NCBI RefSeq assembly: GCF_014643835.1
Contig: NZ_BMKD01000001.1
Coordinates: 372,001 to 436,000 of the forward strand
Source: Mucilaginibacter rubeus
Lineage (GTDB): Bacteria > Bacteroidota > Bacteroidia > Sphingobacteriales > Sphingobacteriaceae
DNA: 64,000 nt
Direction: 5' to 3'
The notes under the pieces were generated by a model. It ran no database searches. It was not told where the DNA came from and saw only the letters and a program-made list of their open reading frames with translations. Below are positions 39,124 to 58,966 of this stretch, in pieces. Both the position numbers and the translations under genes were made by a program. Positions within the stretch are counted from its first letter, which is position 1. The number at the start of each line of letters is the position of its first letter.

Positions 39124-40461
39124 TTATTTACCCAAATAGTTTATTCCGGCTGTTTTTAATTTTTTAATAACCGCTGCTGCCACATCGCGCCCCTGCTGAT
39201 TGCCGTTAACAATGGCATCATTAAAATGAATACCGCCATAAAAACGGGACAAAGAAGCCTCTTCAGCAGCCTGCTTAAACGATTTGAAATCGCGGGGGCC
39301 AACACCATAGGGGATTTCCGAATCATCTGTGTAAGCAAAGTTATCACCCAACAGATAACTTAATACTCCAGCCGACGAATTTGACAACACGGCATGGCCG
39401 CTTGGATACTCCGGGAATGGCGGGGTTTGCAACATGGGCACCCATTTAATATCAATGTATTTGTTAATATAGGTTTCGGGACGGATGCCGTTACTGCGAT
39501 ATTTTTCGTCCCAGCAACTGATAAATGCATCCATTTCGGTCATGGCTACCAGCGTTGCTACTTGTATCGATTTATCAAAACTAAGCCCGGCTTTTTTTAC
39601 GGCAATACCGACAATGTTCATCCAGTGCCCACCCGGACTGATTTTTTTAAAACCGATCATCATGTGTCCCGATGTGGTGACAGCAAAAGGGTTGCAATCC
39701 CAAAAGTTGGCAATCATGATCTGCTCTGTCGACATGTTTTTGGATACCTTGTAAACTGCATATGCTTCCTTGTAAAAGTCGCTGGTGCTGTCAGTGCTGA
39801 ATACGGCGGGCCTTATAGGCACAAACTGGTTAGAGGAGTCGATAAACATAGGCCGAATGGTTTTCCAGTTGGGTTCAACGGCCTCCATATACATCGGCGG
39901 GGTAGGGAACCAGTTTTTACCACCTTTAATAGGCGAATACCGAAGCCGGCCGCTCAACTTATTGTAATTATCTGATTTAGAATATTTAATAACCTTAGCC
40001 GTCATTTCGGTGGCAGCGGCTATCGATTGCTTGACCACATCTTCGCTGATTCCGTTCTCTTTAAGAAGGGCTACATACTTATCCTCATCATCCTGCAGCA
40101 TAAAGCCCGATGGGAGCATCTGCTTTCCTGTTTCCAGTATACAATACATAGCGGCTATGCGATAATCGTACTTATCGGCCGGGATGCTGATCTGGTTATC
40201 CAGTGTGTAGCTTTTGATGAAATTGCCAACCGGTATTACCTGTTTATTGTTGAGACTAACCAAATTATAAGCCCCCAGGGTTACATAAGCATAATAGCGG
40301 GAGGCTGCGGGCGGGTTTACAACATCATGGATCATAACCGCCGAAATAGCGTTTACAGCCTGATCGATATGCAGGTACGGAAGAATGTTTTTTTTACTCT
40401 TTTGCGCATAGGCTGTTGTGCTTATCAGCGCTAAAAACAATATGGATATTTGTTTGATCAT
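39124..40461 (-). CDS. Vanadium-dependent haloperoxidase/PAP2-family protein
   Basis: 445 residues with signal peptide (ISILFLALISTTAYAQ). The PAP2/haloperoxidase signature is seen in EYPSGHAVLSNSSAG (His356, acid-base) and SRFYGGIHFNDAIVNGNQQGRD (His412, vanadate or phosphate ligand), and an upstream DEKYRSNGIRPETY provides the Lys/Arg phosphate contacts. Members either halogenate with vanadate or act as phosphatases; sequence does not decide. It is the last gene downstream of the FG-GAP, SusD and SusC genes, a recurrent arrangement in Bacteroidota. Likely periplasmic. Confidence 0.85.
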   Translation of the reverse strand: MIKQISILFLALISTTAYAQKSKKNILPYLHIDQAVNAISAVMIHDVVNPPAASRYYAYVTLGAYNLVSLNNKQVIPVGNFIKSYTLDNQISIPADKYDYRIAAMYCILETGKQMLPSGFMLQDDEDKYVALLKENGISEDVVKQSIAAATEMTAKVIKYSKSDNYNKLSGRLRYSPIKGGKNWFPTPPMYMEAVEPNWKTIRPMFIDSSNQFVPIRPAVFSTDSTSDFYKEAYAVYKVSKNMSTEQIMIANFWDCNPFAVTTSGHMMIGFKKISPGGHWMNIVGIAVKKAGLSFDKSIQVATLVAMTEMDAFISCWDEKYRSNGIRPETYINKYIDIKWVPMLQTPPFPEYPSGHAVLSNSSAGVLSYLLGDNFAYTDDSEIPYGVGPRDFKSFKQAAEEASLSRFYGGIHFNDAIVNGNQQGRDVAAAVIKKLKTAGINYLGK

Positions 40462-50858: not shown

Positions 50859-51029
50859 AGCTAATTTATTAGTTATACGGAACGTAAATGACAAGGTTTT
50901 GTTTTGGAAAAGGAAAGGGTACTGAATGTTAACCGATATAAAATACCCGTAGAGCACAGGAAATCCCGATATTGAAAAAAAGGATGAATATTTTTTAAAC
51001 AAACACTACTAAGTTTATAGATATTATAG

Positions 51030-51037
51030 TATATTTG
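51030..51037 (+). promoter_or_regulatory. Bacteroidota -7 promoter box (TAnnTTTG)
   Basis: TATATTTG is an exact match to the Bacteroidota -7 consensus TAnnTTTG. No good TTTG -33 box lies at the usual spacing. Transcription from here would start near 51044, about 15 bases before the first Cys-ending mini-ORF. This supports that the mini-ORF lies at the 5' end of the redoxin transcript. Confidence 0.5.
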
Positions 51038-51058
51038 TTGTGTGACATTCAAAAACAG

Positions 51059-51145
51059 ATGACAGGCAACAGTTTAATCAGCAGCAACAAATATGCACCA
51101 GCCGAAAACCGGGGGCTGTACATGCCCATGTGTTGCTGTTGTTGA
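51059..51145 (+). CDS. Polycysteine leader peptide 1 (28 residues)
   Basis: A complete small frame, ATG 51059 to TGA 51145, starting MTGNSLISSNKY and ending MPMCCCC, i.e. four consecutive Cys codons (TGT TGC TGT TGT) directly before the stop. It lies 15 bases after a predicted transcription start and upstream of a redoxin-fold gene. Bases 51131-51141, covering the Cys codons, can pair with 51079-51089 (11 bp, one G-U). Similar short Cys-ending leaders control cysteine/sulfur genes by attenuation in actinobacteria; here the same logic is inferred, not shown. Confidence 0.6.
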   Translation: MTGNSLISSNKYAPAENRGLYMPMCCCC

Positions 51146-51213
51146 AATTCTCTCCAATACAAAATAAGCTGTTACGCACCTTTAAATTTACTGGCCTCAA
51201 TTAATATATTTTT

Positions 51214-51309
51214 ATGAATACATCCCGCAATAAACAATTAAGCAACGCCATCCCGCCGGGCTTGCTCATGCGTTACCGGATAATTTATGGATTATGCCGT
51301 TGTTGTTGA
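51214..51309 (+). CDS. Polycysteine leader peptide 2 (31 residues)
   Basis: A second small frame in tandem, ATG 51214 to TGA 51309, ending GLCRCC just before the stop. It has no sequence likeness to leader 1 except the terminal Cys run, so two independent frames end alike. Bases 51285-51296, immediately before the Cys codons, match 51341-51352 in 11 of 12 pairs; the second arm lies 20 bases before the redoxin ATG. A ribosome stalled at the Cys codons would cover the first arm and free the second. That would switch translation on when Cys-tRNA is scarce. Inference. Confidence 0.55.
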   Translation: MNTSRNKQLSNAIPPGLLMRYRIIYGLCRCC

Positions 51310-51371
51310 ACAATACAACTTAACTACGATTACCTAAAAACATTATCCATAACATCATAATCTATTTTAAA

Positions 51372-52016
51372 ATGCAAACCACAAATAATAATAAATATCC
51401 TTTTTTTGACCTGCTTGAAGTTGTTGCCGAACCCGATCTTAAGTTTCGTAAGCTGAAATCATTACATCCTGTAAAAGCGGGCAATTTGGTCCCTGAATTT
51501 AAGTTAAGTAACGATTATAGCCGCTGGCAGCAATTTTACAATGGCGGCGAAACACATGGGCCTATTTCGCAAAGAAATTTATTAAATAAACCGCTGGTTA
51601 TTTCTTTTTATTCGCGTCATTGGGGGCAGCAAGGTCTGGCGCAACTTAAACAACTGAATAATTTGCAGCATGAGGTTAAGGCAAGCGGCGGCAACCTGCT
51701 TATTATTATTGATGAGCGCACCGAAGAGCTTGAAAAATGGGCATGGGAGCAAAGCCTCACCCTTAATTTTTATCACGATGCCGATAAAGAATTAGCACAG
51801 CAATTCAGGGTTTATTCTGACGATTACCCGGTGTGGGACAGGTTTTCGGGCATCGACGAAAATGCGCCGTTATTGGCCACCTATATTATTGAACCATCAA
51901 AACAGGTTATCTACAGCCATATCGACTGGGATTTCCTGGGTACTTTTTCTGCCGAAGACATCATCAGCACTGTTTATGAATCAGCATTGATCAGTAATAG
52001 CCGCAGATCGGCATAA
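51372..52016 (+). CDS. Redoxin-fold (peroxiredoxin-like) protein lacking all cysteines
   Basis: 214 residues. The core matches the AhpC/TSA thioredoxin fold: VPEFKLSNDY, PLVISFYSRHWGQQGLAQL, LLIIIDERTEELEKWAWE, LNFYHDADKELAQQFRVYSDDYPVWDRF. At the place of the peroxidatic or CxxC motif (family FYxGxWCPYC) it has WGQQG (84-88), and the whole protein contains no Cys. It therefore cannot be a classical peroxidase or thiol reductase and may be a pseudoenzyme, binding protein or sensor. No signal peptide is seen. It sits downstream of the two polycysteine mini-ORFs and ends at a 12-bp hairpin terminator. Confidence 0.8.
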   Translation: MQTTNNNKYPFFDLLEVVAEPDLKFRKLKSLHPVKAGNLVPEFKLSNDYSRWQQFYNGGETHGPISQRNLLNKPLVISFYSRHWGQQGLAQLKQLNNLQHEVKASGGNLLIIIDERTEELEKWAWEQSLTLNFYHDADKELAQQFRVYSDDYPVWDRFSGIDENAPLLATYIIEPSKQVIYSHIDWDFLGTFSAEDIISTVYESALISNSRRSA

Positions 52017-57424: not shown

Positions 57425-58966
57425 ATGGCTACAGTTTCATTGGGCAGCCCGGCAGGCAAATGGATCATGGTTTCGGCTATACTGGCTTCGGCCATGGCAT
57501 TTATTGATGGAACAGCGCTTAATGTGGTGCTGCCGGCATTACAACAAAGCCTTGATGCCAAAGGAGCTGATCTCTTTTGGATCCTAAACGCCTACCTGTT
57601 GATGCTTGCCTCTCTTATTTTAATAGGCGGCTCGCTTGGCGATAAATTGGGGCGAAAGAAGGTCTTCATGATTGGGATTTTTATTTTTATAACCGGATCA
57701 GCCCTTTGCGGGCTTTCACCAGGTGTTTTTTATCTCATTGTTTTCCGGATCATACAGGGTATAGGAGGGGCACTGATGATTCCGGGGAGCCTTTCGCTTA
57801 TTTCATCATCCATCGATGCAAAAGAAAGGGGCAAGGCTATCGGAACATGGTCGGCCATTACCACGGTAGTTACTATGGGCGGCCCGGTATTGGGTGGCGC
57901 CTTAGCCGATGCCGGTTTATGGCGGTACATATTCTTTATTAATATACCCATAGGGATAGTAGCTTTAGTTATCCTGTGGCGCAAGGTTGCCGAAAGCAAG
58001 GATGATAGCACCGATCAAACTATCGATTTTCCGGGCGCTATTTCCATTGCATCAGGGCTTGCTTTGCTAACATTTGGTTTTCTGCGAATGCCGGCGGTTG
58101 GATTTAATAACTGGCAGGTTTATGGATCATTAGCCCTGGGCTTATTATTGCTCATTGTTTTTATTTGCATAGAAGGTACAAGCACACATCCCATGATGCC
58201 GCTAAGCCTGTTTAGCAATAAAACCTTTAGCGGGATAAACCTGCTTACATTTTTTCTGTATGCGGGTTTGGGCGGCGGTATGCTGTTCATGTCACTAAAC
58301 ATGGTGCAGGTGCAGGGGTATAGCCAACTGCAATCTGGGTTAACATTTTTACCTTTTACTGTGCTCATGATCTCCATTGCGCGTTATGCAGGAGCTATTG
58401 CCGATAAAAAAGGTCCGCGTTTATTGCTCATCATCGGTCCGGCTTTGGCGGGAGCAGGGTTACTAATGTTGTCGTTCATCAAACAAACTGCAGGCCCTTC
58501 CGATTATTGGACAAGCTTTTTCCCCGGCGTACTTGTTTTTGGCTTCGGCATGTCATTAACGGTAGCGCCGCTTACGGCAACGGTAATGGGATCGGTAAGT
58601 GATCATTTTTCGGGTACAGCGTCGGGTATTAATAATGCTATGACCCGCATTTCGAATGTTTTTGCCAATGCCATTTTTGGTGCCCTGGCAGTTTTGTTTT
58701 TTTCGGGAGCGATGCAGGGGGAGTTGAAAAAGTTATCCTTTAATGAAAAAGATAAAAAGACGGTTATGGAACAATCGGCCAACTTGGGCAATGCTAAAGT
58801 GCCCGCCGGCATCGACGGAACCAATAAAAAGGCAGTCGGGATTGCCTATCACAACGGATTTATTTCAGCCTATGGCAATATTATGCGGATCTGCGCCGGC
58901 CTTGGTTTCCTGGGTGCGCTGATGTCGGTTATTTTTATCAGGAATAGTGCTGTTAAGAAGGAGTGA
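57425..58966 (+). CDS. MFS drug exporter, DHA2 (14-helix, EmrB/QacA-like)
   Basis: 513 residues with about 14 hydrophobic helices. MFS motif A is seen in GGSLGDKLGRKKVFMIG and the antiporter motif C in GWSAITTVVTMGGPVLGGALAD-like context, both typical of DHA2 proton-coupled drug exporters. It likely exports drugs or lipophilic compounds. No TetR-type regulator lies next to it. Confidence 0.9.
   Translation: MATVSLGSPAGKWIMVSAILASAMAFIDGTALNVVLPALQQSLDAKGADLFWILNAYLLMLASLILIGGSLGDKLGRKKVFMIGIFIFITGSALCGLSPGVFYLIVFRIIQGIGGALMIPGSLSLISSSIDAKERGKAIGTWSAITTVVTMGGPVLGGALADAGLWRYIFFINIPIGIVALVILWRKVAESKDDSTDQTIDFPGAISIASGLALLTFGFLRMPAVGFNNWQVYGSLALGLLLLIVFICIEGTSTHPMMPLSLFSNKTFSGINLLTFFLYAGLGGGMLFMSLNMVQVQGYSQLQSGLTFLPFTVLMISIARYAGAIADKKGPRLLLIIGPALAGAGLLMLSFIKQTAGPSDYWTSFFPGVLVFGFGMSLTVAPLTATVMGSVSDHFSGTASGINNAMTRISNVFANAIFGALAVLFFSGAMQGELKKLSFNEKDKKTVMEQSANLGNAKVPAGIDGTNKKAVGIAYHNGFISAYGNIMRICAGLGFLGALMSVIFIRNSAVKKE

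Follow-up and report, generated by a model that had tools for sequence, protein, structure and literature searches.

Two mini-ORFs ending in runs of Cys codons (uORF1 and uORF2) precede the gene of a redoxin-fold protein in Mucilaginibacter rubeus, raising the question of what such short reading frames do there and whether other genes carry them too. Our starting point was a window of 64,000 nt, i.e., the whole stretch of DNA analysed, for which the original prediction had proposed a cysteine-responsive attenuator at this locus. All of its landmarks were found again, namely TATATTTG, which we take to be a Bacteroidota-type -7 box, the redoxin-fold gene and the two complete Cys-ending mini-ORFs, whose coordinates proved exact (Table 1). 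The redoxin ORF matches Pfam AhpC-TSA (E 5.2e-14). A search for Rfam cis-regulatory RNAs gave 0 matches at the gathering score across the whole window, the redoxin locus included.

Table 1. Features of the redoxin locus and further short Cys-tail ORFs of the window
Feature	Position	Strand	Description
Operator-like dyad CTACTAAGTTTATAG (CTAC-N7-ATAG)	51006-51020	.	In a conserved block extending to the -7 box (24-leader alignment)
Presumed -7 box TATATTTG	51030-51037	+	Ends 21 nt 5' of the uORF1 ATG
uORF1	51059-51145	+	28 codons; translation MTGNSLISSNKYAPAENRGLYMPMCCCC (stop); tail ...YMPMCCCC-stop
Four Cys codons of uORF1	51131-51142	+	Abut the stop; TGT/TGC vary among relatives
Spacer 1	51146-51213	+	68 nt, without strong structure; fold z 0.73 in the window
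uORF2	51214-51309	+	31 codons; translation MNTSRNKQLSNAIPPGLLMRYRIIYGLCRCC (stop); tail ...YRIIYGLCRCC-stop
uORF2 tail YGLCRCC	51286-51306	+	YGL motif and Cys codons
Spacer 2	51310-51371	+	62 nt with one G and 13 C; + strand terminator not found
Redoxin gene (AhpC/TSA-fold protein)	51372-52016	+	214 aa, no Cys, initiator as the only Met
Further 12-codon Cys-tail ORF	39762-39800
Further 12-codon Cys-tail ORF	58260-58298

A strict Cys-tail uORF was defined by an ATG start, a length of 10-60 codons and at least three Cys among the last five codons. On both strands of the window, four ORFs satisfied this definition (uORF1, uORF2 and two others of 12 codons), compared with a mean of 0.45 per shuffled window in 20 dinucleotide shuffles. 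Homologs of the redoxin gene were found in 58 of 149 related genomes, all of them Mucilaginibacter (58 of 90 genomes of the genus), and in 0 of the 59 other genomes. The leader set comprised 52 stretches of 450 nt each (the window, 50 of 59 redoxin places and L037; contigs L031-L036, copies or near copies of included loci, were left out). At least one strict uORF was present in 40 of the 52 leaders and two in 8, whereas 100 dinucleotide shuffles of each gave expectations of 0.12 and 0.00 leaders, respectively, and the reverse strand gave 0 of 52. Under a looser definition of the tandem arrangement, which asks for an upstream uORF with at least two Cys in its last six codons and a downstream uORF with a YGL/YSM-like motif, it was seen in 28 redoxin leaders. 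Twelve leaders failed the strict criterion; seven of them (L018, L019, L039, L041, L046, L049 and L050) have a weaker or non-ATG Cys-tail uORF, and no convincing one was seen in the other five (L024, L028, L043, L045 and L047). These counts confirm that the Cys-tail mini-ORFs are real and lie far above chance, as had been argued from the two Cys-run frames of the window, and they reduce a chance origin of the Cys runs to a negligible possibility, even though two further short ORFs in the window also satisfy the criterion.

The conservation check that the original prediction had proposed was run on the relatives, and what it revealed has the marks that a leader peptide leaves in sequence: a short ORF with Cys codons, with the frame and the regulatory codons at its tail kept and the remainder drifting. 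Codon differences among seven uORF2 sequences (21 non-independent pairs) were 58 synonymous and 152 non-synonymous. For uORF1 they were 63 and 154 in 15 non-independent pairs of six relatives, a comparison from which the uORF1 of the window, one codon shorter, is absent. The uORF bodies thus show little sign of apparent amino-acid constraint, and the Cys tails persist in relatives with interchange of TGT and TGC (121/46). Because constraint is limited to the tails, Ka/Ks over whole uORFs is uninformative. Among 91 uORFs selected for Cys tails, the last Cys abuts the stop in 75 and lies one residue away in 14 and two residues away in 2; Cys makes up 2.3% of the residues in the bodies and 72% of the last five, the part by which the uORFs were selected. 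Met is also concentrated in the upstream uORFs, with 26% at residues -10 to -5 and 2% elsewhere (n=32). The high Cys content would suit functional small Cys-rich peptides, metal-binding or secreted, as the role of the mini-ORFs in place of regulation, but bodies with so little constraint, Cys limited to the last codons and the recurrence of such uORFs before unrelated genes make this very improbable.

The 91 distinct uORF-target pairs, picked for Cys tails, came from pattern matches and individually read loci. They comprise 46 redoxin rows (34 distinct targets), 13 MetY, 6 porin, three groups of SusC-like receptors (SusC-B 7, SusC-A 4, SusC-C 3) and 12 others, which include five redoxin relatives (L044, L048, L052, L054 and L055). 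Pfam and NCBIfam searches on representatives identified SusC/RagA, Porin_O_P, an AhpC-TSA/DUF4369 protein, a serine carboxypeptidase and, in L239, CysH, and they identified the gene next after the porin as a PstS-like binding protein; beyond these representatives, the class names are our reading of the sequences. TlpA-like and carboxypeptidase-like proteins are also among the targets. CysH was found behind a Cys-tail uORF in a distant Bacteroidota genome (G472), and the genes 3' of CysH in L239 resemble CysD and CysN by eye. In L237, the SusC-B gene adjoins a convergent cluster read as CysH/siroheme/sulfite reductase, whose Rrf2 regulator scores under the CymR cut-off. In L234, a sulfatase gene follows the SusC-A gene at a distance of four genes; L236 has a similar-looking gene, and none was seen in the L235 stretch. 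The notion of an isolated double leader was therefore not borne out: with similar leaders at MetY, SusC, porin and CysH genes, the redoxin locus appears as one member of a regulon. In L060 (position 1428), a uORF ending in CCCCC was also observed directly 5' of a phytanoyl-CoA dioxygenase-like ORF (by eye); the gap is 57 nt, like other spacers, if the gene starts at the next Met.

Pattern searches were of varying use for gauging how far such uORFs are distributed. The bare pattern TGYTGYTGYTRA gave 79-105 hits per genome in 7 genomes and the reversed pattern 9-24, and these counts were set aside, the reversed-pattern control being unmatched to coding composition. An MCCC-stop pattern was searched in 149 genomes, and ten of 30 loci read had longer uORFs before a fitting gene; most of the 30 were chance ORFs of 4-5 codons. 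The narrow pattern TGYATGTGYTGYTGYTRA was found in 17 of 301 family genomes (15 of 69 in the genus and 2 of 232 others) and in 3 of 395 in the phylum, and of eight loci inspected, L208, L213, L230 and L231 were rejected as lying inside long ORFs. This pattern is too specific to gauge distribution, and MetY orthologs were therefore used. In other genera of the family, MetY was placed in 28 of 30 genomes and its start located in 26; judged by eye, 17 of these 26 leaders have a Cys-tail uORF, 3 a Met-rich one and 6 neither. Met-rich tails (MSMRMRMHMH-like) occur at three of the four places of genus g69 (L265, L267 and L268). Beyond the family, 26 MetY places were found in 25 of 30 genomes, with the start located in 19, and 7 of these 19 leaders pass a loose Cys/Met criterion that carries no shuffle control. 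L291 was discarded though passing it, and six uORFs were counted (L274, L275, L276, L284, L287 and L289). The leader of L289, from a distant Bacteroidota genome, has two tandem Met/Cys-rich uORFs (MMCMMM and MMCMCMMMRM) 5' of the MetY gene.

The MetY leaders carry a further element. A SAM riboswitch (RF00162) ends 7-10 nt 5' of the ATG of the Cys-tail uORF in all 8 MetY leaders scanned (L100, L101, L105, L165, L177, L179, L181 and L186; the distance in L165 was measured to the second ATG of the uORF), and RF00162 was absent from seven other loci in the same scan. Riboswitch and Cys uORF would act as two sulfur sensors in series at MetY and, if SAM blocks the start of the uORF, they could form an AND gate that opens when SAM and Cys are both low.

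Most targets are nearly free of sulfur. Cys and internal Met per 100 aa amount to 0.010 and 0.112 in the redoxins (the 46 rows with 34 distinct targets), 0.00 and 0.25 in MetY, 0 and 0.18 in the porins, 0 and 0.05 in SusC-A, 0 and 0.61 in SusC-B and 0.47 and 0.51 in the remaining class; the reference values, taken from 149 window and long-locus proteins with a minimum length of 200 aa (targets included), are 0.65 and 1.68. Across 14 long loci, which were picked for uORFs or dyads and describe the regulon rather than survey it without bias, the median (Cys+Met)/length was 0.0041 in 11 uORF genes and 0.0237 in 96 others (p 1.4e-6). When the 45 non-overlapping ORFs of the window with 150 codons or more are compared, the redoxin gene alone lacks both Cys and internal Met, and 50 non-redundant full-length homologs include 47 without Cys and 39 with at most one Met, the maximum being five Met. 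The SusC protein of L235, with 1037 residues, has no Cys and only the initiator Met; CysH of L239 has 6 Cys despite its Cys-tail uORF. A low sulfur content is not confined to uORF targets, because MetY is also sulfur-poor at L280, L283 and L288, where no uORF was seen. A 282-aa short-chain-dehydrogenase-like protein (by eye) encoded in L245 (7744-8590, + strand) likewise has no Cys and no internal Met, and a Cys-tail uORF was not found upstream of its gene.

Because similar uORFs precede sulfur-related genes in relatives, we read the mini-ORFs as a switch responding to Cys/Met shortage, and this reading gains support from the uORFs of MetY, SusC and CysH genes and from the near absence of sulfur from most targets. 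The mini-ORFs are likely tandem leader peptides that gauge charged tRNA-Cys (in uORF1 probably tRNA-Met as well), with the locus belonging to a sulfur-starvation regulon. The tandem Cys-tRNA sensor of the original prediction is supported in this respect by tails and targets; considering the Met-rich uORF1 tails and the YGL motif in uORF2, however, sensing may not rest on Cys codons alone. Translation of the uORFs, stalling and the direction of the response, as we infer them from sequence, would take the following course. With ample sulfur amino acids, the ribosome would complete each uORF and be released, leaving the downstream gene low. When they are scarce, it would stall on the Cys run beside the stop, which would fix its position relative to the spacer, and the redoxin-fold protein would be expressed, its translation itself requiring almost no sulfur amino acid. 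Besides the redoxin gene, the putative regulon would take in MetY, SusC-type receptors, porin and further genes, in many cases preceded by a common CTAC-N7-RTAG-like dyad. We discarded a reinitiation model, as it predicts less sulfur-free protein under starvation.

How a stalled ribosome might be coupled to expression was approached through the spacers. In 28 leaders, the distance from the uORF1 stop to the uORF2 ATG is 65.5 +/- 6.0 nt (range 41-80) and that from the uORF2 stop to the gene 57 +/- 6 nt; elsewhere, uORF-gene spacers measure 64-67 nt (porin), 66-73 nt (SusC-B) and 66 nt (SusC-C), and longer leaders are found at MetY (114-155 nt) and SusC-A (252-270 nt). The mean fold z was -0.11 for 25 redoxin leaders (fixed stretches, base-composition shuffles) and 0.03 for the spacer 1 stretch (19 leaders), the porin, SusC-B and SusC-C spacers have MFE values of 0 to -2.4, and RNAalifold gave no consensus pair in the 25 redoxin leaders. 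In the window, folding of the uORF1 region was equalled by 7 of 200 shuffles and that of the uORF2-gene region by 20 of 200, a slight advantage over shuffled sequence, and some structure may therefore exist there. Two possible pairings were rejected. A window helix joining the 5' part of uORF1 to the Cys codons of that uORF does not appear kept in relatives, and for the pairing of the uORF2 tail with the stretch 5' of the redoxin start, a stem visible in several close leaders, RNAalifold gave no consensus pair. The MetY leaders have paired elements 3' of the uORF (mean z -1.6, n=13), and a strong hairpin is present in the SusC-A leaders (n=4, z between -1.05 and -3.06). In the latter (L128, L214, L235 and L236), the stretch from the Cys-tail uORF to the nearly sulfur-free SusC gene contains a perfect hairpin, ACCGGCAAGG-AAG-CCTTGCCGGT, conserved in all four; a second dyad (TGATGgATCAG / CTGATCATCA) follows 3' of it in three of the four, not in L128.

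In classical attenuation, stalling would toggle an antiterminator against an intrinsic terminator. Such a mechanism may hold at MetY and SusC-A, whose leaders are longer and structured, so that coupling may differ there. At the redoxin locus, however, no terminator-like site was found on the + strand and the fold z averages close to zero, as given above, and classical attenuation is quite improbable. What stands of the proposed attenuator is a probable Cys-sensing leader; termination at a hairpin is not supported at this locus, and the word attenuator would here name an outcome, not a demonstrated mechanism.

The YGL motif points to another kind of sensing. Y, G and L are each present in 29 of 30 uORF2 rows, an invariance that is partly selection because these rows were picked by a YGL-like pattern; the same does not apply to the synonymous codons, which vary freely (Leu in six codons, Gly in four). 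The Cys codon after YGL is TGT in 30 of 30 rows. The motif appears to be kept at the peptide level, and uORF2 might accordingly be imagined as a nascent-chain arrest peptide (YGLxxCC) answering a small molecule, with uORF1 as a plain codon sensor. It persists, written in many synonymous codons, even at redoxin homologs of ~31-47% identity, and this exceeds what a pure Cys-codon sensor needs. However, the preselection inflates the counts, and YGL is absent from the non-redoxin uORFs listed; we consider an arrest peptide unlikely.

The spacers themselves are poor in G. Class-A spacers have 6% G and 24% C (36 leaders), compared with 15% and 18% in 94 control leaders, and C-G skews above the control 95th percentile are found in a fraction of 0.24 of the redoxin rows, 0.33 of the porin, 0.86 of the SusC-B and 1.00 of the SusC-C rows, and in 0 of the MetY and SusC-A rows. 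The Rho RNA-binding domain is encoded in 3 of 3 genomes. As the most likely coupling, we tentatively propose that each stop is followed by a Rho loading site, formed by the G-poor unstructured spacer and masked by the stalled ribosome; we go no further because an unstructured leader also suits efficient initiation and most redoxin C-G skews are within the control range. A somewhat doubtful but possible alternative is that the uORFs sense sulfur amino acids and act through mRNA stability or downstream translation, without transcription termination; for example, a ribosome stalled near the 5' end would shield the mRNA. The missing + strand terminator-like site, the lack of an RNAalifold consensus structure and the position of the first uORF near the presumed promoter fit this. 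The near-constant spacer lengths are not obviously needed for it, and nothing is directly contrary.

An AlphaFold2 model of the redoxin-fold protein, built on an alignment of 25 sequences, has a mean pLDDT of 79, with values below 50 at residues 1-27 and 158-165. It resembles peroxiredoxins and ResA, with a best E of 2.0e-8 and TM scores, taken by query length, of 0.45-0.57 among the 50 matches listed. No peroxidatic Cys is present in the window redoxin, which has FYSRHWGQQG at the likely active-site region; without any Cys it cannot be a Cys-dependent peroxidase. The protein may itself be part of cysteine metabolism.

Canestrari et al. 2020 are said to have described polycysteine leaderless short ORFs as cysteine-responsive attenuators in mycobacteria. 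The likeness is the Cys run in a short upstream ORF; the differences are the other phylum and the tandem, Met-rich or YGL tails seen here, and the nearly sulfur-free targets and the combination of SAM riboswitch and uORF at MetY are also features of the present system. In the tna operon of E. coli, the TnaC peptide stalls next to its stop, ahead of a Rho-sensitive spacer, and free tryptophan is sensed via the nascent chain. A short peptide, stop-adjacent stalling and a Rho-sensitive spacer are the logic proposed here as well, but here the tail consists of codons for scarce amino acids, and Rho would be a presumed partner. According to PMC8632094, the uORFC-8-2 motif 5' of cysS in Rhodobacterales has tandem Cys codons and was proposed to sense charged tRNA-Cys, with two stems and a 3' U run interpreted as an intrinsic terminator. 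Tandem Cys codons are also present in the redoxin leader, which shows neither the stems nor the U-run terminator. Transcriptome maps of Bacteroidota contain hints of leader-peptide attenuation and, in the parts available, mention neither a cysteine leader peptide nor a sulfur regulon (PMC9723704, PMC7366714). The view that such leaders are apparently not described in Bacteroidota held up, in that no report of cysteine leader peptides in the phylum was found among the papers listed in searches of an open-licence library, most subscription journals lying outside it. Leader peptides with Cys codons are a known kind; what appears to be new, within this scope, is their occurrence in this phylum, together with the stacking of modules, the mixing of Met and Cys in the tails and the sulfur-poor regulon.

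For Bacteroidota as a whole, we regard it as evenly balanced whether there is a widespread sulfur-starvation regulon built of stackable, hairpin-free modules (a Cys/Met-tail ORF with a ~65-nt spacer), one type having a YGLxxCC arrest motif. In such a regulon, MetY would receive a second input from the SAM riboswitch immediately 5' of its uORF, and many structural genes would have been purged of sulfur. If true, a tRNA-charging sensor would be tied to a set of proteins depleted of sulfur in the course of evolution, and a directly testable sulfur regulon of receptors, a porin with a binding-protein gene and MetY would be at hand. The uORF would be a stackable module, seemingly independent of hairpins, with a possible two-input gate of SAM riboswitch and Cys uORF at MetY, and the cysteine-less redoxin and similar genes would gain a physiological context.

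The promoter block suggests a second, transcription-factor layer beside the uORFs, formed by the dyad. A looser dyad (CTAY-N7-RTAG or MTAC-N7-RTAG, at most 150 nt 5' of the first uORF) was found in 23 of 26 first-uORF redoxin rows and, with uORF2 rows included, in 28 of 46 redoxin rows, compared with 0.80 in base-composition shuffles. It is present in 4 of 4 SusC-A, 4 of 6 porin, 3 of 3 SusC-C and 9 of 12 other rows, rare at SusC-B (1 of 7) and absent from the MetY leaders (0 of 13); the shuffle expectation is 0.04-0.80 per class. CTAY-N7-RTAG occurs at three further places in the window. The motif TAnnTTTG ends 17-23 nt 5' of the ATG in 18 of 26 first-uORF redoxin, 7 of 7 SusC-B and 3 of 4 SusC-A rows, and at the same distance in 0 of 6 porin, 0 of 3 SusC-C and 0 of 13 MetY rows. 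The whole block (at most 3 mismatches) was found in 30 of 100 genomes, mostly at redoxin genes, and 4 of 12 non-redoxin matches examined have a Cys-tail uORF before the gene (L152, L153, L154 and L157). Because class counts and block matches coincide only partly, the dyad and uORF regulons overlap without being the same set. As for an Rrf2/CymR-like protein as the dyad regulator, no dyad was found near its cluster in L237. At G010:C1:55647-55686 (~L236 1650-1690), ~550 nt upstream of the nearest Cys-tail uORF, the dyad takes the form of an overlapping, perfect palindrome, CTATTAAATCTATAGATTTAATAG, and overlapping palindromes also make up the dyad at position 2912 of L240.
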